This document shows, piece by piece, positions 18,449-48,518 of a stretch of DNA of 64,000 bases. Below the pieces are notes generated by a model. It was given only the letters and a program-made list of their open reading frames with translations, was not told the origin of the DNA and made no database searches. Positions within the stretch are counted from its first letter, which is position 1. The number at the start of each line of letters is the position of its first letter. The DNA comes from Allobosea sp. (lineage in GTDB: Bacteria > Pseudomonadota > Alphaproteobacteria > Rhizobiales > Beijerinckiaceae). A program made the translations under genes and the position numbers. The stretch spans positions 1 through 64,000 of the forward strand of contig NZ_JAFKFW010000013.1 of assembly GCF_017308015.1 (NCBI RefSeq), in the 5' to 3' direction.

Positions 18449-18455
18449 TCTGCCC

Positions 18456-18555
18456 CGTCATGGCCGGGCTTGATCCGGCCATCTCGTGACGAGATCGCCC
18501 CGCCTGACAACACTCCGCTCTGCCTGAGATGCCCGGGTCAAGCCCGGGCATGACG
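18456..18555. repeat. two inverted copies of an intergenic palindromic repeat
   Basis: The copy at 18456-18485 contains ATGGCCGG-GCTTGAT-CCGGCCAT. The copy at 18526-18555 contains ATGCCCGGG-TCAAG-CCCGGGCAT in the opposite orientation. Related units occur at 26928-26957, 28192-28221 and 28241-28271. They look like a dispersed REP/BIME-type element and may shield 3' ends of transcripts; here they lie between GH15 and the convergent M20 peptidase gene. Confidence 0.7.
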
Positions 18556-18582
18556 CCGGAGACGTGACAGCGACTCGTGCCG

Positions 18583-22938: not shown

Positions 22939-24162
22939 TCAGATGACGTTGGCCTCCTTGAGCGGCCGTCCCGCAACGATGCGCTCGTGGCCGAGATCGG
23001 CAAGGTCGAGCGAGCGATAGCGGCCATGCGCGATATGCTCGGCGAGCCCGCGCCCGACCGCCGGCGCCTGCTGCAGGCCGTGGCCGGAGAAGCCGTTGGC
23101 GAGATAGAGGTTGGGCAGGCCGACCGCCGGGCCAATGATGGCGTTATGGTCGAGCCCGCACATGTCGTAGGGGCCCGCCCAGGCGCGGCCGGGCTTGATC
23201 TGCTCGAAGGCCGGGATGCGCGTGGCGAGCGAGGGCCAGACCACCTCCTCGAAGAAGCCCCAGTCGACATCCTCGGCAGCGGGATCGGTCTCGATCCACT
23301 CGACATCCTGCTCAGGCGTCAGCGGCGAGCAGCTACCGATGAAGAGCTGGCCTTCCGACGTGCGCTTGCCCTCCTGCCGGCACCAGGCTCCGGTCGTATC
23401 GATCAGGAGCGGGCAGCCATCGACATCGCCCTTGCAGGTGAAGGTGAAGACATAGCGCTTCATCGACTTCACTGGGATCTCAATCCCCGCCGTCGCGGCG
23501 AGCTTCGCGCCGTGGGTACCGCTGGCATTGACGACGGCACCGCAGGAGATGCGGCTGCCATCGGCGAGCTCTACCGCGGTGACCCGACCGCCTTCGGTGA
23601 CGTGACGGGCAACCTCGCCCTGCCGATATTCGACGCCGAGGCTGCGCGCCCTCTTGCGGAAGGCCTGGAGCAGCGCCCAGCCGTCGAACCAGCCTTCGCC
23701 GCTGACGCCGAAGGTCCCGCAGGCGAGGTCCTCGGTGTTGAGCCAGGGGAAGCGCTGCTTCAGCGTGGCGGGGTCGTAGAGCGCGATATCGGCACCCTCG
23801 GCAGCCTGCAGCTTCTGGTTGGCTTCGAGGATCGGCGCGCCGGCTTCGCTGGCGAGATAGAGATAGCCGCCCTCGTGCAGGTCGATCGCCGGAACGTCGC
23901 CATCGACCGCTAGGTGCTGGCCGATATTGCGCAAGAAATCGACGCCGAAGAGCGAGATCCGAATGTTCACCGCGCTGGAGAATTGCTGGCGGATAGAGGC
24001 CGCCGAGAGCGCGGAAGCCGAAAAGCGGTAGGTTGGGTCCTTCTCGATCACCACGACCTTGCCGGTGAAACCTGGATCGGCGGCGAGATGATAGGCGACG
24101 GAGGAGCCGATCGCGGCGCCACCGCAGATCACGACATCGGCGCTTTCGGAGACGGGCAGCAT
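22939..24162 (-). CDS. FAD-dependent oxidoreductase (DAO family)
   Basis: This 407-aa flavoprotein of the D-amino-acid oxidase / sarcosine oxidase / glycine oxidase group has an N-terminal Rossmann FAD site (ADVVICGGAAIGSSVAYHLA) followed by VVVIEKDPTYRFSAS. The DAO core includes GWFDGWALLQAFRKRARSLG and CGAVVNASGTHGAKLA. The C-terminal FAD loop is NLYLANGFSGHGLQQAPAVG. It likely oxidises an amine or amino acid, giving an imine and H2O2 or reduced acceptor. It sits downstream of a LysR gene that is divergent from a lysine-type catabolic cluster, so L-pipecolate or a related lysine intermediate is a plausible but unproven substrate. Confidence 0.85.
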   Translation of the reverse strand: MLPVSESADVVICGGAAIGSSVAYHLAADPGFTGKVVVIEKDPTYRFSASALSAASIRQQFSSAVNIRISLFGVDFLRNIGQHLAVDGDVPAIDLHEGGYLYLASEAGAPILEANQKLQAAEGADIALYDPATLKQRFPWLNTEDLACGTFGVSGEGWFDGWALLQAFRKRARSLGVEYRQGEVARHVTEGGRVTAVELADGSRISCGAVVNASGTHGAKLAATAGIEIPVKSMKRYVFTFTCKGDVDGCPLLIDTTGAWCRQEGKRTSEGQLFIGSCSPLTPEQDVEWIETDPAAEDVDWGFFEEVVWPSLATRIPAFEQIKPGRAWAGPYDMCGLDHNAIIGPAVGLPNLYLANGFSGHGLQQAPAVGRGLAEHIAHGRYRSLDLADLGHERIVAGRPLKEANVI

Positions 24163-24256: not shown

Positions 24257-25171
24257 TCAGCTCGCTGGCGCGCATTCCCCGAGCAGCCAGTCGCGGAAGG
24301 CGATAACCGTCGGCAGATTGGCCTTCTCCTCGGGATAGACGAGATAGTACCCGTCCTTGCCGGTCACAGGCCGGTCGATCGGGATGACCAACGAACCCGA
24401 GCGCAATTCTTCCTCGACCAGAAAGCGCGGCACGATGGCGAGCCCGAGTCCCGCCACTGCCGCCTGCGCGATCATGGCGAACTGCTCGAAGCGCGGGCCC
24501 ATCAAGGCCCGCTCCGGCGCCAGTCCCTGCTGCTCCAGCCAGTTGGCCCAGGCTCGTGGCCGGGTCGATTGCTGGAGCAAGGGCGCGCGCAGCATGTCGG
24601 CCGCCTCGGTGATCCCGACGCGTGCCAGCAGGGAGGGGGCGGCGACGGGCACGACTTCCTCGCCCATCAGGCGGTGGAGCCTTGCTCCGGGCCAGTTCTC
24701 CGCGCCGAAATGCACGGCGGCATCGACCTGCTCGCGGGCGAAATCGAAGGGCACCAGCCGCGTGGTGAAATTGATGGTGATGCCGGGATGAGCCTCGGTG
24801 AAACGCGGCAGCCGCGGGATCAGCCAGCGTGTGCCGAAGGTTGGCAATGTGGCGAGATTGAGCACACCAGCCGCGCCGCGGAAGGCCATGGCGGAGACCG
24901 TCGCCGCGGCAAGCCGGGACAGCCCGTCGCGGATATCGTTGGCATAGGCCGCCCCCGCCGCCGTCAGGCTGACGCGCTTCTTGACGCGCTCGAACAGACT
25001 GACGCCGAGCACCTTTTCGAGATGCGCGACCTGCCGGCTGACCGCGCCCTGGGTCAGGTTCAGTTCCTCCGCCGCGCGCGTGAAACTGCCGTGCCGGGCC
25101 GCGGCCTCGAAGGCGGCGAGCGCGGAGAGCGAAGGCACCGAGAGGCGGCCGGGAACGAGCGCATCATCCAT
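24257..25171 (-). CDS. LysR-type regulator (GcvA-like), probable regulator of the lysine/glutaryl-CoA cluster
   Basis: This 304-aa regulator has an N-terminal winged helix-turn-helix (LSALAAFEAAARHGSFTRAAEELNLT, GAVSRQVAHLEKVLG) and a GcvA-type effector domain with WPGARLHRLMGEEVVPVAAPSLL and GLGLAIVPRFLVEEEL. It is divergent from the ALDH7-gcdH cluster. A 20-bp imperfect palindrome at 25178-25197 begins 7 bp from its ATG, ideal for autoregulation and control of the divergent operon. The ATG lacks a clear Shine-Dalgarno sequence. Comparable LysR regulators next to glutaryl-CoA dehydrogenase genes (GcdR in Pseudomonas) respond to glutarate. Confidence 0.88.
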   Translation of the reverse strand: MDDALVPGRLSVPSLSALAAFEAAARHGSFTRAAEELNLTQGAVSRQVAHLEKVLGVSLFERVKKRVSLTAAGAAYANDIRDGLSRLAAATVSAMAFRGAAGVLNLATLPTFGTRWLIPRLPRFTEAHPGITINFTTRLVPFDFAREQVDAAVHFGAENWPGARLHRLMGEEVVPVAAPSLLARVGITEAADMLRAPLLQQSTRPRAWANWLEQQGLAPERALMGPRFEQFAMIAQAAVAGLGLAIVPRFLVEEELRSGSLVIPIDRPVTGKDGYYLVYPEEKANLPTVIAFRDWLLGECAPAS

Positions 25172-25197: not shown

Positions 25198-25336
25198 CAT
25201 ATCGGTTGCCCAAGCGACGCGAAAGAGGGCATTGTTCCGGCCTCAAGCGCGGCGGCCTCCGGTTCCCGCGCCTTTATGTCATGCGCCCCAGGGCATGCGC
25301 CCTCGGGCTCCCGCCCGCGACCGCTGGAAGACAACG

Positions 25337-26857
25337 ATGGCCACATCCCTGCCGAAAGACACGCTCGCCCTGCTCAAGCGCCTCGGCGTCGCCGATTCGG
25401 CCTACGCCGATGCCGGCCTCTCGGCCCGCTCGCCGATCACCGGCGAGGCCATCGTGACCCTGCGTGAGACCTCACCGGCCGAGGCCGAGGCCGCGATCGG
25501 CCGGGCCCAATCCGCCTATCTCGCCTGGCGCAAGGTGCCGGCGCCGCGCCGCGGCGAATTCGTCCGCCTGCTCGGCGAGGAGCTGCGCGCCGCCAAGACC
25601 GATCTCGGCCTGCTGGTGACGCTCGAAGCCGGCAAGGTGACTTCCGAGGGCCTCGGCGAGGTCCAGGAGATGATCGATATCTGCGACTTCGCCGTCGGCC
25701 TGTCGCGCCAGCTCTACGGCCTGACCATCGCCACCGAGCGCCCGAACCATCGCATGATGGAGACCTGGCATCCGATCGGCGTCGTGGGCGTGATCTCGGC
25801 CTTCAACTTCCCGGTCGCGGTCTGGTGCTGGAACGCGGCGCTCGCCTTCGTCTGCGGCGACAGCGTCGTCTGGAAGCCCTCCGAGAAGACCCCGCTGACC
25901 GCGCTCGCCGTGCAGGCCATCGTCGAGAAGACGATGAAGCGCTTTGGTTCGGAAGCTCCGATCGGCCTCTCGGAAGTCCTCGTCGGCGGCCGCGAGCTCG
26001 GCGACATCCTGGTCCAGGATCATCGCGTCCCGGTCGTCTCGGCCACCGGCTCGACCCGCATGGGCAAGGAAGTCGGCCAGAAGCTCGCCGCGCGCTTCGC
26101 CCGCGCCATCCTGGAGCTCGGCGGCAACAATGCCGCGATCGTCGCCCCCTCGGCCGATCTCGACATCGCGCTGCGCGGCATCGCCTTCGCGGCGATGGGC
26201 ACCGCCGGCCAGCGCTGCACCACGCTGCGCCGCCTGATCGTGCATGAAAGCGTCTATGACGCGCTCGTGCCGAAGCTCGCCAAGGTCTACGGCTCGGTGA
26301 AGATCGGCGATCCCCGCGAGGCGGGTGTGCTGGTCGGCCCGCTGGTCGACGAGGCCGCCTATCAGGGCATGCAGAAGGCGCTCTCCGAGGCCAAGGCCGA
26401 GGGCGGCAAGGTCCATGGCGGCGAGAAGGTCGATGTCGGCTCCGGCGGCTTCTATGTCCGCCCGGCCCTGGTCGAGATGCCCAGGCAGTGCGGCCCGGTC
26501 GAGCGCGAGACCTTCGCGCCCATCCTCTATGTGATGAAGTACAAGTCCATCGACGAGGCGATCGCGATCCAGAACGCCGTCGGCGCCGGCCTGTCCTCCT
26601 CGATCTTCACGCTGAACATGCGCGAGGCCGAGCTCTTCGTCTCCGACGAGGGCTCCGACTGCGGCATCGCCAACGTCAATATCGGCCCCTCGGGCGCCGA
26701 GATCGGCGGCGCGTTCGGCGGCGAGAAGGAGACGGGCGGCGGCCGCGAGGCCGGCTCGGACGCCTGGAAGGCCTATATGCGCCGCGCCACCAACACGCTG
26801 AACTACGGCACCACTCTGCCGCTGGCGCAGGGCGTCAGCTTCGACGTGGATGCGTGA
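25337..26857 (+). CDS. ALDH7-type aldehyde dehydrogenase (2-aminoadipate semialdehyde dehydrogenase-like)
   Basis: This 506-aa NAD(P)-dependent aldehyde dehydrogenase closely resembles antiquitin (ALDH7A1) and bacterial AmaB, which oxidise 2-aminoadipate 6-semialdehyde (piperideine-6-carboxylate) in lysine breakdown. Signs are LLKRLGV at the start, HPIGVVGVISAFNFPVAVWC, VVWKPSEKTPLTA, catalytic glutamate E260 in ILELGGNN and catalytic cysteine C294 in AGQRCTTLRR. The C-terminal GGAFGGEKETGGGREAGSD motif is typical of ALDH7. I chose ATG 25337 because GGAAG precedes it and the length then fits. gcdH follows on the same strand, supporting the lysine assignment. Confidence 0.88.
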   Translation: MATSLPKDTLALLKRLGVADSAYADAGLSARSPITGEAIVTLRETSPAEAEAAIGRAQSAYLAWRKVPAPRRGEFVRLLGEELRAAKTDLGLLVTLEAGKVTSEGLGEVQEMIDICDFAVGLSRQLYGLTIATERPNHRMMETWHPIGVVGVISAFNFPVAVWCWNAALAFVCGDSVVWKPSEKTPLTALAVQAIVEKTMKRFGSEAPIGLSEVLVGGRELGDILVQDHRVPVVSATGSTRMGKEVGQKLAARFARAILELGGNNAAIVAPSADLDIALRGIAFAAMGTAGQRCTTLRRLIVHESVYDALVPKLAKVYGSVKIGDPREAGVLVGPLVDEAAYQGMQKALSEAKAEGGKVHGGEKVDVGSGGFYVRPALVEMPRQCGPVERETFAPILYVMKYKSIDEAIAIQNAVGAGLSSSIFTLNMREAELFVSDEGSDCGIANVNIGPSGAEIGGAFGGEKETGGGREAGSDAWKAYMRRATNTLNYGTTLPLAQGVSFDVDA

Positions 26858-26864
26858 CGCAGAA

Positions 26865-26957
26865 CGTCATTCCCGGGCGCCGCACGGCGCGGCCCCGGAA
26901 TCTCATGACAGTAAGACACTGGTTTCCGTGATGGTCGGGTCAAACCCGGCCATGATG
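26865..26957. repeat. intergenic palindromic repeats between the ALDH gene and gcdH
   Basis: A unit at 26865-26904 has CATTCCCGGG and CCCCGGAATCTC arms around a GC-rich centre. A second unit at 26928-26957 (GATGGTCGGGTCAAACCCGG) is related to those at 18.5 and 28.2 kb. Confidence 0.6.
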
Positions 26958-26983
26958 GTCTGAATATCAGGGAGACGAACACC

Positions 26984-28180
26984 ATGGCCGGCAGCCACAA
27001 GCTCGCAAAGTTCACCTGGGACGATGCCTATCTGCTCGACGAGCAGTTGAACGAGGACGAGCGGCTGATCCGCGACACAGCCCGCGCCTATGCGCAGGAG
27101 AAGCTCGCTCCCCGCATCCATGACGCTTATCTCGACGAGAAGACCGACCGGTCGATCTTCAACGAAATGGGCGAGCTCGGCCTGCTCGGCGTCACCGTGC
27201 CCGAGGAATATGGCTGCGCCGGCGCCAACTACGTCTCCTACGGCCTCGTCGCCCGAGAGGTCGAGCGCATCGACTCCGGCTACCGCTCGATGATGTCGGT
27301 GCAGTCCTCGCTGGTGATGTACCCGATCTACGCCTATGGCAGCGAAGAGCAGCGCAAGAAGTACCTGCCGAAGCTGGGCTCGGGCGAATGGGTCGGCTGC
27401 TTCGGCCTGACCGAGCCGGATGCAGGCTCCGATCCCGGCGGCATGAAGACCCGCGCCGAGAAGGTCGCCGACGGCTACAAGCTGATCGGTTCCAAGATGT
27501 GGATCTCGAACTCGCCGATCGCCGACGTCTTCGTCGTCTGGGCAAAATCGGCAGCGCATGACAACCAGATCCGCGGCTTCATCCTCGACAAGGGCATGAA
27601 GGGCCTCTCCGCGCCGAAGATCGGCGGCAAGCTCTCGCTGCGCGCCTCGATCACCGGTGAGGTCGTCATGGATGGCGTCATCGTGCCGGAAGAGAATCTG
27701 CTGCCGAACGTCTCGGGCCTGTCGGGCCCGTTCGGCTGCCTCAACCGCGCCCGCTACGGCATCTCCTGGGGCGTGATGGGCGCCGCCGAGGACTGCTTCC
27801 ACCGCGCCCGCCAGTACGGGCTCGACCGCAAGCAGTTCAACAAGCCCCTCGCCCAGACGCAGCTCTACCAGAAGAAGCTCGCGGACATGCTGACCGAGAT
27901 CACCCTCGGCCTGCAGGGTAGCTTGCGCGTCGGGCGCCTGCTCGACGACGGCAAGATGGCCCCGGAAATGATCAGCCTCGTCAAGCGCAACAATTGCGGC
28001 AAGGCGCTCGACATCGCCCGCCAGGCCCGCGACATGCACGGCGGCAACGGCATCCAGATCGAGTATCAGGTGATGCGCCACGCCGCGAACCTCGAGACGG
28101 TCAACACCTATGAGGGCACGCATGACGTCCACGCGCTGATCCTCGGGCGGGCCATCACCGGTCTGCAGGCGTTCTTCTGA
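26984..28180 (+). CDS. gcdH: glutaryl-CoA dehydrogenase
   Basis: FAD-dependent acyl-CoA dehydrogenase that oxidises and decarboxylates glutaryl-CoA to crotonyl-CoA and CO2, the last committed step of lysine, hydroxylysine and tryptophan breakdown. The 398-aa protein has R101 in [15 protein letters not shown], which in this family contacts the substrate carboxylate. The catalytic base is E377 in [20 protein letters not shown], nearly the same as in the human enzyme. [15 protein letters not shown] and [18 protein letters not shown] are the FAD-binding loops. GGGAGAC lies 9 bp before the ATG. It is flanked by the ALDH7 gene and a glutarate-type CoA-transferase on the same strand. Confidence 0.96.
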
Positions 28181-28191
28181 GCCTGAACCTC

Positions 28192-28271
28192 CGTCATGCC
28201 CGGGGCTGCCCCGGGCATCTCATCCCGCGTGAATCTCCCCGGAGATGGTCGGGTCAAGCCCGACCATGACG
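28192..28271. repeat. paired intergenic palindromic repeats between gcdH and the CoA-transferase gene
   Basis: 28192-28221 carries ATGCCCGGGG-CTG-CCCCGGGCAT; 28241-28271 carries ATGGTCGGG-TCAAG-CCCGACCAT. The same family as at 18.5 and 26.9 kb. They sit inside a presumed operon. Confidence 0.65.
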
Positions 28272-28288
28272 CCCGAGTCGAACCCACC

Positions 28289-29476
28289 ATGACGCCCCCA
28301 CCGCTTACCGGCCTGCGCGTTCTCGAACTGGCGCGCATCCTCGCAGGTCCCTGGATCGGCCAGCTCCTGGCCGATCTCGGCGCCGATGTCGTCAAGGTCG
28401 AGGCGCCCGAGGGCGACGACACCCGCAAATGGGGCCCACCCTTCGTCGAAGGCGCCGGCGACGAACATCTCTCCGCTGCCTATTTCCACGCTGCCAATCG
28501 CGGCAAGCGCTCGATCACGGCCGATTTCCGCACGGCCGAGGGGCAGGCGCTGGTCCGGCGCCTCGCCGCCAATGCCGATGTGGTGGTCGAGAACTTCAAG
28601 GTCGGCGGCCTCAGCAAATACGGGCTCGATGCGGCCTCGCTGCGCAAGGAGTTCCCGCGCCTGGTTTATTGCTCGGTCACCGGCTTCGGACAGGACGGCC
28701 CCTATGCGCCGCGTGCCGGCTACGACTTCCTCGTCCAGGGCATGGGCGGGGCGATGTCGATCACCGGCGAGCCCGAGGGAGCGCCGATGAAGGCGGGCTA
28801 CGCCGTCGCCGACATCTATACCGGGCTCTATGCCACGGTCGGCATCCTCTCGGCACTGCGCCAGCGCGATACAACCGGCGAAGGCGCGACGCTCGACCTC
28901 GCCTTACTCGACTCGCAGGTCGCGGTGCTCGGCAACCAGGCGATGAACTATCTCGTCGGCGGCAACCCGCCGCCACGGCTCGGCAACGCCCACCCGAACA
29001 TCGTGCCCTATGACGTGTTCCCGGTCGCCGACGGCCATATCATCATCGCGACCGGCAATGACGGGCAGTGGCGCAAGCTCTGCGAGGTGCTGGGCGAGCC
29101 GGCCCTGGCCGACCATCCCGACTATCTCGACAACAAGTCGCGCGTGAAGAACCGCGTCGCGCTGACGGCCAAGCTGCATCTGCTCTGCCAGCGCTATGCC
29201 AAGCTCGATCTGCTGACAGCGCTGGAGAAGGTCGGCGTGCCCGCCGGCCCGATCAACGATATCGGCGAGGTCTTCGCCGACCCGCAGGTGATCGCCCGCG
29301 GCGTCAAGGTCGACCTGCCGAGCGAAGCCGCGAAGGCAGGCCACATTCCGACCGTCGCCTCGCCGATCGTCATGAACGGCGTGCGGCAGGTCGCCGACCG
29401 TCCGAGCCCGCGGCTCGGCGAGCACGCAGACGACATTTTGAACGATCCGGCCTGGGGAGGGCCGCAACATGGCTAA
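28289..29476 (+). CDS. CaiB/BaiF (class III) CoA-transferase, glutarate CoA-transferase-like
   Basis: This 395-aa class III CoA-transferase probably makes glutaryl-CoA from glutarate, as the human SUGCT enzyme does, and so feeds GcdH. Family signs are LTGLRVLELARILAGPWIGQ, LADLGADVVKVEAP, KRSITADFRTAEG, VVENFKVGGLSKYGLD and YCSVTGFGQDGPYA. The expected acyl-accepting aspartate is D146 in RAGYDFLVQGMGG. PLLDSQ-like (ALLDSQVAVLGNQAMNYL) is also conserved. The ATG at 28289 has a weak ribosome-binding site but gives the right N-terminus; upstream in-frame codons run through a repeat. The stop overlaps the next gene by 8 bp. Confidence 0.87.
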   Translation: MTPPPLTGLRVLELARILAGPWIGQLLADLGADVVKVEAPEGDDTRKWGPPFVEGAGDEHLSAAYFHAANRGKRSITADFRTAEGQALVRRLAANADVVVENFKVGGLSKYGLDAASLRKEFPRLVYCSVTGFGQDGPYAPRAGYDFLVQGMGGAMSITGEPEGAPMKAGYAVADIYTGLYATVGILSALRQRDTTGEGATLDLALLDSQVAVLGNQAMNYLVGGNPPPRLGNAHPNIVPYDVFPVADGHIIIATGNDGQWRKLCEVLGEPALADHPDYLDNKSRVKNRVALTAKLHLLCQRYAKLDLLTALEKVGVPAGPINDIGEVFADPQVIARGVKVDLPSEAAKAGHIPTVASPIVMNGVRQVADRPSPRLGEHADDILNDPAWGGPQHG

Positions 29477-31145
29477 TCGTACTGGCGGGCAGATCCTCGT
29501 CGACCAGCTTCTGATCCACGGCGCCACCGACGCCTTCTGCGTGCCGGGCGAAAGCTATCTCGCCGTGCTCGATGCGCTGCACGACGCTTCGATGAAAGTC
29601 ACCATCTGCCGGGCCGAAGGCGGCGCCTGCATGATGGCGGAAGCCGCCGGCAAACTCACCGGCAAGCCCGGCATCTGCTTCGTGACGCGCGGCCCCGGCG
29701 CCACCAATGCCTCGCCCGGCATCCATATCGCCGATCAGGACTCGACCCCGCTCATCCTCTTCGTCGGCCAGATCGACGGCAGCATGCGCGAGCGCGAGGC
29801 CTTCCAGGAGCTCGATTACCGCGCCGTCTTCGGCACCATGACCAAGTGGGCGACCGAGATCGACGATGCCGCGCGCATTCCCGAAATCATCAGCCGCGCC
29901 TTCCATGTCGCGACCTCGGGCCGGCCCGGCCCGGTCGTGATCGCTCTGCCCGAGGACGTCCTGACCGACCTCGCCGATGTCGCGGATGCCGAGCCCTATC
30001 AGGTCACCGAGCAGCATCCCTCGCCGGTGCAGATGGACGATCTCGCCAAGCGCCTTGCTGCGGCCAAGTCGCCGATCGCGATCCTCGGCGGCTCGCGGTG
30101 GAGCCCGGAGACGATCGCCGACTTCCAGGTTTTCGCCGAGCGCTTCGACCTGCCAGTGGCGGTCTCCTTCCGCCGGCAGATGCTGTTCCCGGCCGACCAC
30201 CCGAACTTCGCCGGCGATCTCGGCATCGGCCCCAACCCGAAGCTGCTCGCCCGCATCAAGGAGAGCGACCTCGTCCTGCTGGTCGGAGGACGCCTCTCGG
30301 AGATGCCGAGCCAGTCCTACACCCTGTTCGGCATCCCCAATCCGGGCCGGCCGCTGGTGCATGTCCATGCCGATCCGGAAGAGCTCGGCCGGGTTTACCG
30401 CCCGACGCTCGCGATCAACGCCTCGCCCGCCGGCTTCTGCGCTGCGCTCAAGACGATCGAGCCGCCAAAGACTCCCGTCTGGAAGGGCGCCAGCGCTGTT
30501 GCGCATGAGGCCTATATCGCCTGGAGCGAGCAGCCGGCGCCTGTGCCAGGCGAGTTCCACCCCGGCGAGATGGTGCGCTGGCTGCGCAGCCAGCTCCCGA
30601 ACGATGCCATCCTATGCAACGGCGCCGGCAACTACGCCGTCTGGGTGCACCGCTTCCACCGCTTCAACACGTTCGCGACGCAGCTCGCACCAACCTGCGG
30701 CTCGATGGGCTATGGCGTGCCGGCCGCGGTCGGCGCCAAGCGGATGTTCCCGGAGCGCACCGTGATCGCCTTCGCAGGCGATGGCTGCTTCCTGATGAAC
30801 GGCCAGGATTTCGCGACGGCCGTACAGTACGACCTGCCGGTCATCGTCATCGTGGTCGATAACGGCATGTACGGCACGATCCGTATGCATCAGGAGCGCG
30901 AATATCCCGGCCGCGTCTCGGCGACCACGCTGAAGAACCCGGATTTCGCCGCCTATGCCAAGGCCTTCGGCGGCCATGGCGAGCGCGTCGAGAAGACCGC
31001 CGACTTCGCACCGGCCTTCGAGCGCGCGGTGAAGAGCGGCAAGCCCGCGATCATCCACTGCCTGCTCGACCCCGAGGCGATCACGCCGGCCAAGTCGCTT
31101 TCGACGATCCGGGCCGAGGCTTTCGCAGCCAAGAGCAAGGCCTAA
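29469..31145 (+). CDS. thiamine diphosphate-dependent enzyme, candidate 2-oxo-acid decarboxylase
   Basis: This 558-aa ThDP enzyme has the three-domain layout of acetolactate synthase, benzoylformate decarboxylase and oxalyl-CoA decarboxylase. The Pyr domain has catalytic E50 in CRAEGGACMMAEAAGKLTG and RGPGATNASPGIH. A central Rossmann-like domain contains AILGGSRWSPET. The PP domain binds Mg-ThDP through AGDGCFLMNGQDFATAV ending in VIVDN-like VVVDNGMYG. It overlaps the CoA-transferase gene by 8 bp, so translation is coupled. Automatic annotation would probably call it acetolactate synthase, but no small subunit is nearby. Given its partners, non-oxidative decarboxylation of 2-oxoadipate to glutarate semialdehyde is an attractive inference. 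Confidence 0.8.
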   Translation: MANRTGGQILVDQLLIHGATDAFCVPGESYLAVLDALHDASMKVTICRAEGGACMMAEAAGKLTGKPGICFVTRGPGATNASPGIHIADQDSTPLILFVGQIDGSMREREAFQELDYRAVFGTMTKWATEIDDAARIPEIISRAFHVATSGRPGPVVIALPEDVLTDLADVADAEPYQVTEQHPSPVQMDDLAKRLAAAKSPIAILGGSRWSPETIADFQVFAERFDLPVAVSFRRQMLFPADHPNFAGDLGIGPNPKLLARIKESDLVLLVGGRLSEMPSQSYTLFGIPNPGRPLVHVHADPEELGRVYRPTLAINASPAGFCAALKTIEPPKTPVWKGASAVAHEAYIAWSEQPAPVPGEFHPGEMVRWLRSQLPNDAILCNGAGNYAVWVHRFHRFNTFATQLAPTCGSMGYGVPAAVGAKRMFPERTVIAFAGDGCFLMNGQDFATAVQYDLPVIVIVVDNGMYGTIRMHQEREYPGRVSATTLKNPDFAAYAKAFGGHGERVEKTADFAPAFERAVKSGKPAIIHCLLDPEAITPAKSLSTIRAEAFAAKSKA

Positions 31146-44300: not shown

Positions 44301-45797
<1,497 letters not shown>

Positions 45798-45819
45798 GGC
45801 GCCACCGACGGAGGAGGCC

Positions 45820-46368
45820 ATGGAGCGACCGCTGCGGATCATCGCATCGTCGCTCGCCCTTCTCTGCGGCCTGGCCATGCCGGCCTTTCCGCAGGAGGCC
45901 CCGCCGCCCACCTCGCCCGGCGATGCCCTCTGCGAAACAGGCATCGTCGAGCACCTGACCCTCGACGATGCCCAGCGCAGCCATTGCCAAAGGCTCTGGC
46001 AAAGACGGATCGAGGAAAGCCGCCAGCGCAGTAAGGCGCATGTCGCGCGCATCATCGAGGGAAACCGGCTGCGGCGGGAGCTGGAAGCCAGCCTGCCGCC
46101 GCCACCGCCTCCGCCGGTAACCGTCGAGAGCTTCCTCGGCGGCGATCTCGCCTATGGCGACGTTGTCGTGACCGACAAGGGACCCCGCGTCTTCGTCGGC
46201 AAAGCAGGCGAGCCTGCGTCGGTCGAGGATTTCGTGGCCCTCGACTCGGCCCGGTCTCCGCATCGCGGCCGGGCCAAACCTTACGACGGGGCCTATCCGC
46301 AGGCACAGCGTCCCCAGGCTGCAAAGCCGCGGATTACCGCCCCAAGCCAGCAGGAGCGCAAGCCTTGA
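45820..46368 (+). CDS. small secreted proline-rich protein with GDVVVT...DFVAL motif
   Basis: This 182-aa protein has a signal peptide ([20 protein letters not shown], cleaved near AFP-Q). A helical segment with two cysteines follows ([21 protein letters not shown]), then a polyproline run (PPPPPPP, about 88-94). The conserved C-terminal motif is [20 protein letters not shown]...DFVAL (about 105-140), and the tail is basic and Pro/Gln-rich. The motif recurs in the protein at 32450-32941. GGAGGAGG precedes the ATG. Its stop overlaps the TTG start of isobutyryl-CoA dehydrogenase (TTGA), so the two are coupled despite acting in different compartments. I know no function. Confidence 0.75.
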
Positions 46369-47519
46369 GCCCGTTTTCCCTGACAGAGGACCAGATCGCC
46401 ATCCGCGACATGGCGCAGGACTTCGCCGCCGAGGCGCTGGCGCCCCATGCCGCGCGCTGGGACGAGGAGAAGCATTTCCCGGTCGAGGAGATGCGCGCCG
46501 CCGCGGCGCTCGGCATGGGCGGCATCTATATCCGCGACGATGTCGGCGGCTCGGGCCTCACCCGGCTTGACGCCGCCCTGATCTTCGAGGCGCTTTCGAC
46601 GGGATGCCCGACGGTGGCGGCCTATATCTCCATCCACAACATGTGCGCCTGGATGATCGACCGCTACGGCTCGGACGAGCAGCGCCAGAACTTTCTGCCC
46701 AAGCTCTGCACGATGGAGCATCTGGCGAGCTACTGCCTGACGGAGCCCGGGGCCGGCTCCGATGCCGCCGCACTGAAGACCAGGGCCGTGCTGGACGGTG
46801 ATCACTATGTCCTCGACGGACAAAAGCAGTTCATCTCCGGCGCCGGGGTCTCCGATATCTATGTGGTGATGGCCCGCACCGGCGAGGCCGGCCCTTCCGG
46901 CATATCGACCATCGTCATCGAGAAGGACACGCCCGGCCTCTCCTTCGGTGCCAACGAGAAGAAGATGGGCTGGAACGCCCAGCCTACGCGGGCCGTGATC
47001 CTCGAGAATTGCCGCGTCCCGGTGGCGAACCGCCTCGGCCCCGAGGGCATCGGCTTCAAGATCGCCATGGCCGGGCTCGACGGCGGCCGTCTCAATATCG
47101 GCGCCTGCTCGCTCGGCGGTGCACAAGGAGCACTCGACCGGTCTCTGGCTTATGCCCGGGAGCGCAAGGCCTTTGGCAGCGCGATCGCCGATTTCCAGGC
47201 GCTTCAGTTCAAGCTCGCCGACATGGCGACGGAGCTTGAAGCAGCGCGTAGCCTGCTCTGGCGCGCCGCCGCCGCGCTCGATGCCAAGACGCCGGACGCG
47301 ACGAAGCTCTGCGCCATGGCCAAGCGCATCGCGACCGATACCGGTTTCGATGTCGCAAATGACGCCCTGCAGATCCACGGTGGCTACGGCTATCTCGCCG
47401 ATTACGGGATTGAGAAGATCGTCCGGGATCTGCGCGTCCACCAGATTCTGGAGGGCACCAACGAGGTCATGCGCATGATCGTCGCACGCGGACTGGTGGG
47501 CCGGTCGAAGGGGAACTGA
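46365..47519 (+). CDS. isobutyryl-CoA dehydrogenase (ACAD8-like)
   Basis: FAD acyl-CoA dehydrogenase that forms methacrylyl-CoA from isobutyryl-CoA in valine breakdown. The 384-aa protein has [18 protein letters not shown] and [20 protein letters not shown] as FAD/substrate loops. The catalytic glutamate is E363 in [37 protein letters not shown] and the context (mmsA, mmsB) favour isobutyryl-CoA over other short acyl-CoAs. The start is TTG at 46365 overlapping the previous stop, with AGGAG 10 bp upstream. Confidence 0.9.
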
Positions 47520-47520
47520 C

Positions 47521-47607
47521 GCGGGTCGGCGATCCGGGACAACAAGACGAGAAAGCTCTTTTCCGATGCGATCCCGCGGCTGCTCTTAGCACGGCCCGGG
47601 ATGACAC
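47521..47607. repeat. intergenic repeat unit inside the valine cluster
   Basis: GATCCGGGACAAC and, further on, GGCCCGGGATGACA form divergent arms of a CCGGGATGAC-type repeat related to the palindrome at 50038-50068. It separates the dehydrogenase and mmsB by about 110 bp. Confidence 0.4.
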
Positions 47608-47630
47608 CAAGAACGACGGGAGGATACGAC

Positions 47631-48518
47631 ATGACCAACATCGCCTTCATCGGCCTCGGCAATATGGGCGGCCCGATGGCCGCGAACCTCGTCAAGGCGG
47701 GGCATAGCGTCAAAGCCTTCGACCTCGTGCAGGCGTCGAAGGACGCTGCCGCCGAGATGGGCGTCGGCATCGCCGGTTCGGCGAAAGAGGCGGTGGCCGA
47801 GGCGGAGGTCGTGGTGACGATGCTCCCTGCCGGCAAGCACGTTCTCGCCGTTTGGGCCGACATCCTGCCAACGGTGAAGCCCGGAACGGTGCTGATCGAT
47901 TCCTCGACCATCGATGTCGAGAGCGCCCGCAAGGCCCATGCGCTGGCGGGCGAGCGCGGCTGCCTCTCGCTCGATGCTCCCGTCTCCGGCGGTACAGGCG
48001 GCGCCAAAGGCGCGACGCTGACCTTCATGGTCGGCGGTACGGAGGATGCCTTCGCCAAAGGCCAACCGATCCTCGCCAAGATGGGCCGCAAGATCGTGCA
48101 TTGCGGCGGCGCCGGCAACGGACAGGCGGCCAAGATCTGCAACAACATGATTCTCGGCATCTCGATGATCGGCGTCTCCGAAGCCTTCGTACTCGGCGAA
48201 AAGCTCGGACTGTCGCATCAGGCGCTGTTTGACGTCGCCTCGACCTCGTCGGGTCAGTGCTGGTCGCTGACGACCTATTGCCCGGTGCCGGGGCCGGTGC
48301 CGACCTCGCCGGCCAACAACGAGTACAAGCCCGGTTTCGCCTCGGCGCTGATGCTGAAGGACCTGAAGCTTTCGCAGGAAGCCGCGCAGGCCGCGGGCGC
48401 CTCGACCCCTCTCGGCGCGGCCGCGGCGCAGCTCTTCGGACTGCACAATGCCTGGGGCGAGGGTGGCACGGATTTCTCCGGCATCATCCACCTTCTGCGC
48501 GGGCGCGGGGAAGCGTGA
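47631..48518 (+). CDS. mmsB: 3-hydroxyisobutyrate dehydrogenase
   Basis: NAD-dependent oxidation of 3-hydroxyisobutyrate to methylmalonate semialdehyde, which MmsA then uses. The 295-aa protein has the Rossmann motif IAFIGLGNMGGPMAANLVKAG and DAPVSGGTGGAKGATLTFMVGG, the substrate-binding loop. GNGQAAKICNNM contains the catalytic lysine. The C-terminal ALMLKDLKLS is typical of the beta-hydroxyacid dehydrogenase family. GGGAGGAT precedes ATG 47631. The enoyl-CoA hydratase and 3-hydroxyisobutyryl-CoA hydrolase needed between Ibd and MmsB are not in the window. Confidence 0.95.
   Translation: MTNIAFIGLGNMGGPMAANLVKAGHSVKAFDLVQASKDAAAEMGVGIAGSAKEAVAEAEVVVTMLPAGKHVLAVWADILPTVKPGTVLIDSSTIDVESARKAHALAGERGCLSLDAPVSGGTGGAKGATLTFMVGGTEDAFAKGQPILAKMGRKIVHCGGAGNGQAAKICNNMILGISMIGVSEAFVLGEKLGLSHQALFDVASTSSGQCWSLTTYCPVPGPVPTSPANNEYKPGFASALMLKDLKLSQEAAQAAGASTPLGAAAAQLFGLHNAWGEGGTDFSGIIHLLRGRGEA

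Follow-up and report, generated by a model that had tools for sequence, protein, structure and literature searches.

Which metabolic step is carried out by the thiamine diphosphate (ThDP)-dependent enzyme encoded within a group of lysine-route genes of an Allobosea sp. (assembly GCF_017308015.1)? The stretch analysed, referred to here as the window, comprises the first 64,000 nucleotides of contig NZ_JAFKFW010000013.1, and the gene in question lies at the end of a group of four that also encodes an aldehyde dehydrogenase (ALDH), the glutaryl-CoA dehydrogenase GcdH, and a CoA-transferase. We propose that this locus serves pipecolate/lysine catabolism and that its ThDP enzyme would decarboxylate 2-oxoadipate, a reading to which a probability of about 0.72 is assigned from sequence and gene context. 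To our knowledge, the enzymes so far described for this step are all of different types, and a literature search, from which most subscription journals were absent, found no published 2-oxoadipate decarboxylase of the ThDP type.

The four genes were present on the + strand at the positions given for them in the original prediction, and the CoA-transferase and ThDP genes overlap by 8 bp (29469-29476) as had been claimed. Two genes that were absent from the earlier list, an oxidoreductase and a regulator, lie upstream on the opposite strand and go with the unit in relatives. The Pfam and NCBIfam matches of the locus proteins are far above chance level.

29469..31145, + strand: ThDP enzyme of the PRK08199/NF006052 family (909.3 bits, cut-off 539), proposed 2-oxoadipate decarboxylase
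25337..26857, + strand: L-piperidine-6-carboxylate / 2-aminoadipate-6-semialdehyde dehydrogenase of the ALDH7 type (NF050084, 810.7 bits, cut-off 730)
26984..28180, + strand: glutaryl-CoA dehydrogenase, GcdH (solved glutaryl-CoA dehydrogenases 1siq, E 4.1e-175, and 3gnc, E 8.9e-187)
28289..29476, + strand: family III CoA-transferase, SUGCT-like, proposed to convert glutarate to glutaryl-CoA (best NCBIfam model NF052585)
22939..24162, - strand: DAO-family FAD-dependent oxidoreductase, candidate oxidase of L-pipecolate or a related imino acid (Pfam DAO, 8e-52; presumed substrate)
24257..25171, - strand: LysR-type regulator of the GcvA subfamily, divergent from the operon (NF008352, 304.7 bits, cut-off 288)

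The ThDP enzyme and its family

The family to which the ThDP protein belongs, PRK08199/NF006052, is named and is functionally blank; where the gene is annotated it is mostly called just 'thiamine pyrophosphate-binding protein'. It was found in 113 of 241 sampled Alphaproteobacteria genomes (weaker subgroup counted in). The protein matches PF02775, PF02776, and PF00205 above their cut-offs, and its AlphaFold2 model (pLDDT 90) has the acetolactate-synthase fold, with a Foldseek TM of 0.89 and 25-26% identity to the catabolic acetolactate synthase AlsS (PDB 4rjj, 4rjk). Among the main ThDP rows of the alignment, E50, which we take to be the catalytic Glu, is conserved in 179/180, and D438 and N465 of what is presumably the cofactor motif (GDG 437-439...N465) are conserved in 180/180. 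R74 and R472 are invariant in all 180 of these rows, whereas AlsS, which shares the fold, has Ser and Ala at the aligned positions. These two arginines could hold the distal carboxylate of the substrate. The rows of the family divide at residue 385, which is either Gly or Asp.

Automatic tools see the acetolactate synthase fold in this protein, which could accordingly be a large subunit of that enzyme located here by chance. This explanation is highly improbable, as the protein scores 332.3 bits against TIGR00118 (cut-off 538.35) and 909 bits against PRK08199, above that family's own cut-off, and the linkage described below is conserved. AruI is another ThDP 2-oxo acid decarboxylase that is easily annotated as acetolactate synthase; it functions in the arginine transaminase pathway after an aminotransferase and before a semialdehyde dehydrogenase. 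Identity with AruI (NF005712, 5-guanidino-2-oxopentanoate decarboxylase) was also rejected, since the score of 234.2 bits (cut-off 500) places the ThDP protein in another family, and the substrate class differs. The route proposed here would apply to lysine the logic of the arginine transaminase route: an aminotransferase, a ThDP 2-oxo acid decarboxylase, and a semialdehyde dehydrogenase.

Gene context in relatives

Two samples of loci were compared. Set 1 consisted of the 120 stretches that surround the best PRK08199 matches in 241 genomes drawn evenly from the class Alphaproteobacteria; 23 weaker matches were left out, and genomes known by those alone are untyped at residue 385. For set 2 the 80 closest relatives among named genomes were taken, which biases it toward the window. 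Loci lacking a full, stop-free ThDP row were dropped (3/120 in set 1; 2/80 in set 2, L215 and L236), leaving 117 and 78, and gene calling recovered the ThDP frame in 116 of 121 stretches, window included. Markers were counted within 7 kb of the ThDP gene at identity thresholds of 55% for the ALDH7-type piperideine-6-carboxylate (P6C) dehydrogenase, 58% for GcdH, 40% for the CoA-transferase, and 45% for the DAO oxidase.

In alpha- and betaproteobacteria, eight gene orders were seen that bring the ThDP gene next to genes of the lysine route (ARRANGEMENTS):

Bosea, Chelatococcus, and Alsobacter: oxidase and LysR divergent; ALDH7, GcdH, CoA-transferase, ThDP
Microvirga (13): oxidase divergent; saccharopine-dehydrogenase-like protein, ALDH7, ThDP
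Acidovorax (e.g. GW101-3H11, L178): LysR divergent; ALDH7, oxidase, amino-acid binding protein, class I/II aminotransferase, ThDP
Azospirillum: LysR divergent; ThDP, ALDH7
L063: saccharopine-dehydrogenase-like protein, ThDP, ALDH7
An Alcaligenaceae bacterium: LysR divergent; ThDP, GcdH
Aquabacter and L073: GcdH, CoA-transferase, ThDP
Mesorhizobium, Phyllobacterium, and Rhizobium: CoA-transferase, ThDP

The best named relative of the locus is that of Bosea thiooxidans (94% identity for the ThDP protein and 95-97% for the other five). Homologues of the DAO oxidoreductase accompany the ThDP gene in Bosea, Microvirga, Acidovorax, and Rhizobium, and the GcvA-type LysR homologue is transcribed divergently from the ThDP genes in Azospirillum; in Acidovorax it is divergent from the ALDH7 gene.

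At least one marker was found in 54 of the 78 loci of set 2 (P6C dehydrogenase 38, DAO oxidase 32, CoA-transferase 25, GcdH 12), and P6C dehydrogenase or GcdH was found in 41; thirteen loci depend on the CoA-transferase alone, and two of these (L192, L203) have weak or distant matches. Set 1 gave 10/117 (P6C dehydrogenase 3, CoA-transferase 6, GcdH 2, DAO oxidase 2). These include L063 and L067, in which the P6C dehydrogenase and ThDP genes are direct neighbours on one strand, L073, with GcdH and CoA-transferase nearby, and L052, a member of the window's family with oxidase, P6C dehydrogenase, and CoA-transferase; three of the ten have a weak CoA-transferase alone together with a different residue 385. 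Outside the window's family, the two adjacent same-strand P6C dehydrogenase genes of set 1 compare with ~0.009 expected, a rough estimate from crude random placement. CoA-transferase III was the commonest Pfam family among 98 direct same-strand neighbours (5); Aldedh (4) shared second place with two more families. When 197 ThDP rows were placed on a FastTree tree and labelled by the presence of any of the four markers (65 rows), the label switched 22 times, which argues that the linkage was repeatedly gained or lost and is not one inherited cluster.

The aminotransferase, P6C dehydrogenase, oxidase, and saccharopine-type dehydrogenase would feed 2-aminoadipate or 2-oxoadipate, and the CoA-transferase and GcdH would begin at glutarate. 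The neighbours therefore flank one missing step, from 2-oxoadipate to glutarate semialdehyde, and context and pathway knowledge suggest that the ThDP enzyme would fill it. To reach glutarate, this decarboxylation must be followed by oxidation of the aldehyde, which a separate ALDH would carry out. The original prediction had likewise placed this enzyme on 2-oxoadipate ahead of the CoA-transferase and GcdH, and had named a lack of association of its family with gcdH/SUGCT-type genes among the outcomes that would refute it. An association was found, and this part of the prediction is well supported by conserved alpha- and betaproteobacterial context; it is not universal, as the 10/117 of set 1 illustrates.

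The many relatives with unrelated neighbours, together with a fold nearest to acetolactate synthases, would also fit an enzyme that uses another 2-oxo acid, or is a carboligase, and is loosely tied to lysine, with 2-oxoadipate handled by the 2-oxoglutarate dehydrogenase complex. The only E1 of matching size in the host genome could be promiscuous. We regard this explanation as unlikely, since the linkage to lysine-route genes is repeated and re-ordered and extends to both sides of the 2-oxoadipate step, and since a complex that made glutaryl-CoA directly would leave the CoA-transferase without a purpose.

A second alternative concerns the product. If the ThDP enzyme were oxidative like pyruvate oxidase, 2-oxoadipate would be converted directly to glutarate with electrons passing to quinone or oxygen, and a semialdehyde dehydrogenase would be unneeded. 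The absence of a second ALDH from the cluster, the presence of pyruvate oxidases among the sequence and structural relatives of the ThDP protein, and the position of the CoA-transferase gene directly before the ThDP gene in many loci agree with this. It is nonetheless quite improbable, because in L203, L133, and L135 the direct neighbour of the ThDP gene encodes an ALDH that is not of the ALDH7 type (nearest the KGSADH families, below their cut-offs), and a 72% relative of the L203 enzyme lies beside the ThDP gene on the Diaphorobacter plasmid L257; these neighbours fit a free aldehyde as the product. L175 and L186, where a 67% relative of the L203 ALDH occurs on the same stretch, were left uncounted because of how far that gene lies from the ThDP gene and because of a neighbour that looks unrelated.

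Proposed route

The analysis establishes what the genes are at the family level, that their linkage is conserved, and that active-site residues are conserved; from this we infer the substrates, the order of the steps, and the identity of the aminotransferase and the glutarate-semialdehyde dehydrogenase. The DAO oxidase would convert pipecolate to P6C, and the ALDH7 enzyme would convert P6C to 2-aminoadipate, from which an aminotransferase encoded elsewhere would produce 2-oxoadipate. Non-oxidative decarboxylation by the ThDP enzyme would then yield glutarate semialdehyde and CO2. The semialdehyde would be oxidized to glutarate by a dehydrogenase encoded elsewhere or by the ALDH7 enzyme itself, after which the CoA-transferase would form glutaryl-CoA and GcdH would convert it to crotonyl-CoA.

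This order departs from the original prediction, in which an ALDH could form glutarate and the four genes could make up a complete route from 2-oxoadipate to crotonyl-CoA. The ALDH is a P6C/aminoadipate-semialdehyde dehydrogenase (NF050084) that would act before 2-oxoadipate, which leaves the locus without an obvious glutarate-semialdehyde dehydrogenase; an aminotransferase is likewise not at the locus, and a complete route formed by the four genes alone is not confirmed. A candidate for the semialdehyde dehydrogenase is encoded elsewhere in the host genome (G000, 56 contigs), at ~17.9-19.4 kb of contig C45 (L255:7931-9391), where an ALDH is 65% identical to the ThDP-adjacent ALDH of L203 (Candidimonas). 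The window itself holds a second ALDH within 44301-48518 (SSADH profile, 292 bits, below cut-off), which is followed by frames starting, by look, like an acyl-CoA dehydrogenase and an NAD-binding dehydrogenase; this is perhaps a valine-catabolism run.

The host genome has one GcdH at E 1e-130 and one PRK08199 gene at E 1e-150. Three Sacchrp_dh_C proteins are encoded, one of which is 51% identical to the ThDP-linked Microvirga protein. Of four strong E1_dh matches, one has the size of a 2-oxoglutarate dehydrogenase (1023 residues, typed by frame length only). HglS (HGLS/DUF1338) gave 0 matches at E 0.001 in this genome, and it was rejected as the host's own 2-oxoadipate route. The absence of HglS and the single E1 frame of this size support the decarboxylase reading.

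Both established ways of using 2-oxoadipate differ from the one proposed. Decarboxylation by DHTKD1 is of the ThDP type. The 2-oxoadipate dehydrogenase complex that contains it also decarboxylates 2-oxoadipate toward glutaryl-CoA, but it is a multi-enzyme system that yields glutaryl-CoA and NADH directly, so that a CoA-transferase is unneeded (PMC9367764, from excerpts of the paper). HglS converts 2-oxoadipate to D-2-hydroxyglutarate in lysine catabolism with a specificity set by one arginine; unlike the ThDP enzyme it is an Fe(II)/O2 enzyme of unrelated fold, and it leads to 2-oxoglutarate, not glutarate (PMC7286885, likewise from excerpts). In the excerpts available, PMC10164729 concerns beta-ketoadipate and PMC7842363 concerns the dehydrogenase complex in a fungus.

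Co-occurrence across genomes

Co-occurrence was examined in the 241 class genomes with tests that disregard relatedness and genome size. P6C dehydrogenase was found in 30/68 genomes with a G385-type PRK08199 protein and in 33/173 others (odds ratio 3.3, p 1.4e-4). Genomes with the Asp-385 type only showed no link to P6C dehydrogenase (9/33 versus 54/208, odds ratio 1.1), and this group may do something else. GcdH was found in 99/102 genomes with a main-group PRK08199 protein versus 53/139 others, and in 68/68 of those with the G385 type.

HglS-family genes occur in 10/241 genomes (in 6 as weak matches), and their distribution overlaps that of PRK08199, which led to the rejection of mutual exclusion; they neither explain the PRK08199 pattern nor exclude PRK08199. 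In three genomes of one genus, weak HGLS/DUF1338 matches (~90 bits) lie at most ~750 bp from a P6C dehydrogenase gene and are possibly divergent HglS:

G136:C1:482030-482731: weak HGLS/DUF1338 match
G026:C17:36315-37016: weak HGLS/DUF1338 match
G217:C3:340789-341490: weak HGLS/DUF1338 match

Points that weigh against the decarboxylase reading

Several observations count against assigning 2-oxoadipate to the ThDP enzyme. No lysine marker was found nearby in 107/117 loci of set 1, and outside the window's family GcdH was not significantly enriched there at distances up to 7 kb (2 versus 0.38 expected, P 0.057). The co-occurrence with GcdH appeared strong at first and was then given little weight, since control ThDP families score alike (PRK08266 18/19, glyoxylate carboligase 6/6); large, versatile genomes may explain much of it, and these controls are much rarer than PRK08199 and thus poorly matched. 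At the strict threshold used, 38/68 G385-type genomes are without P6C dehydrogenase and would need another source of 2-oxoadipate, of which tryptophan via 2-aminomuconate is one, and five G385-type genomes also carry HglS-family genes. R74 and R472 are also kept in a low-identity group, most of whose gene contexts do not resemble lysine loci. At the locus itself, the CoA-transferase scores 588.4 bits against its best NCBIfam model, succinate--glutarate CoA-transferase (NF052585), under the cut-off of 750, and neither a second ALDH nor an aminotransferase was found in the cluster. Finally, L133, L135, and the Rhizobium locus L259 have hydantoinase-type genes near the ThDP gene and no P6C dehydrogenase was seen there.

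Other features of the locus

The ALDH7 protein matches solved antiquitin, ALDH7A1, and aminoadipic semialdehyde dehydrogenase structures with E 3e-138 or better; its longest frame starts at 25232. GcdH scores 216 bits against the NCBIfam Acd-type model NF045552, where 470 are needed. The CoA-transferase matches the solved succinate--hydroxymethylglutarate CoA-transferase 9br6 with E 1e-86, and 28289 is its probable start, preferred over that of the longest frame (28196) because the extra N-terminus sits in a palindromic repeat. The DAO oxidoreductase reached no NCBIfam cut-off in the family scan and has only distant solved relatives (sarcosine oxidase, 3e-21). Palindromic REP-like repeats fill the operon spacers and recur elsewhere in the window (18455-18564) and in Bosea relatives.

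26858..26983: spacer with palindromic REP-like repeat
28181..28288: spacer with copies of the palindromic REP-like repeat

A possible lactam feed and the meaning of the family

Four annotated plasmid neighbourhoods were examined of 60 among the matches listed (198 records matched). On plasmid L259 of Rhizobium sp. CIAT894 (NZ_CP020952.1, 1-7674) the ThDP gene is last in a run of hydantoinase/oxoprolinase A and B (HyuAB) genes that also holds an aminotransferase (51% identical to that of Acidovorax), an NAD(P) oxidoreductase, and a DAO oxidase (48% identical to that of the window). The B subunit is nearest to caprolactamase beta (170 bits, cut-off 1000), and a HyuB gene (67%) also lies near the ThDP gene in L133 and L135. 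Speculatively, a lactam route through 6-oxopipecolate would fit the L259 run.

A broader reading can be put forward tentatively, with the odds somewhat against it: G385-type PRK08199 proteins would be widespread 2-oxoadipate decarboxylases of another lysine/pipecolate branch that runs through 2-oxoadipate, glutarate semialdehyde, glutarate, and glutaryl-CoA. In some Rhizobium, a lactam feed comprising the oxidase, the NAD(P) oxidoreductase, and the caprolactamase-like HyuAB would additionally lead to 2-aminoadipate via 6-oxopipecolate, replacing P6C dehydrogenase.

If the decarboxylase reading is true, it would provide a function, for the lysine-linked part at least, of a gene that is present in nearly half of the sampled Alphaproteobacteria, and it would account for the location of a glutarate-type CoA-transferase with GcdH. 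The ThDP enzyme would also add a third way of handling 2-oxoadipate to those of HglS and the dehydrogenase complex, and would be a natural 2-oxoadipate decarboxylase for the production of C5 chemicals such as glutarate.

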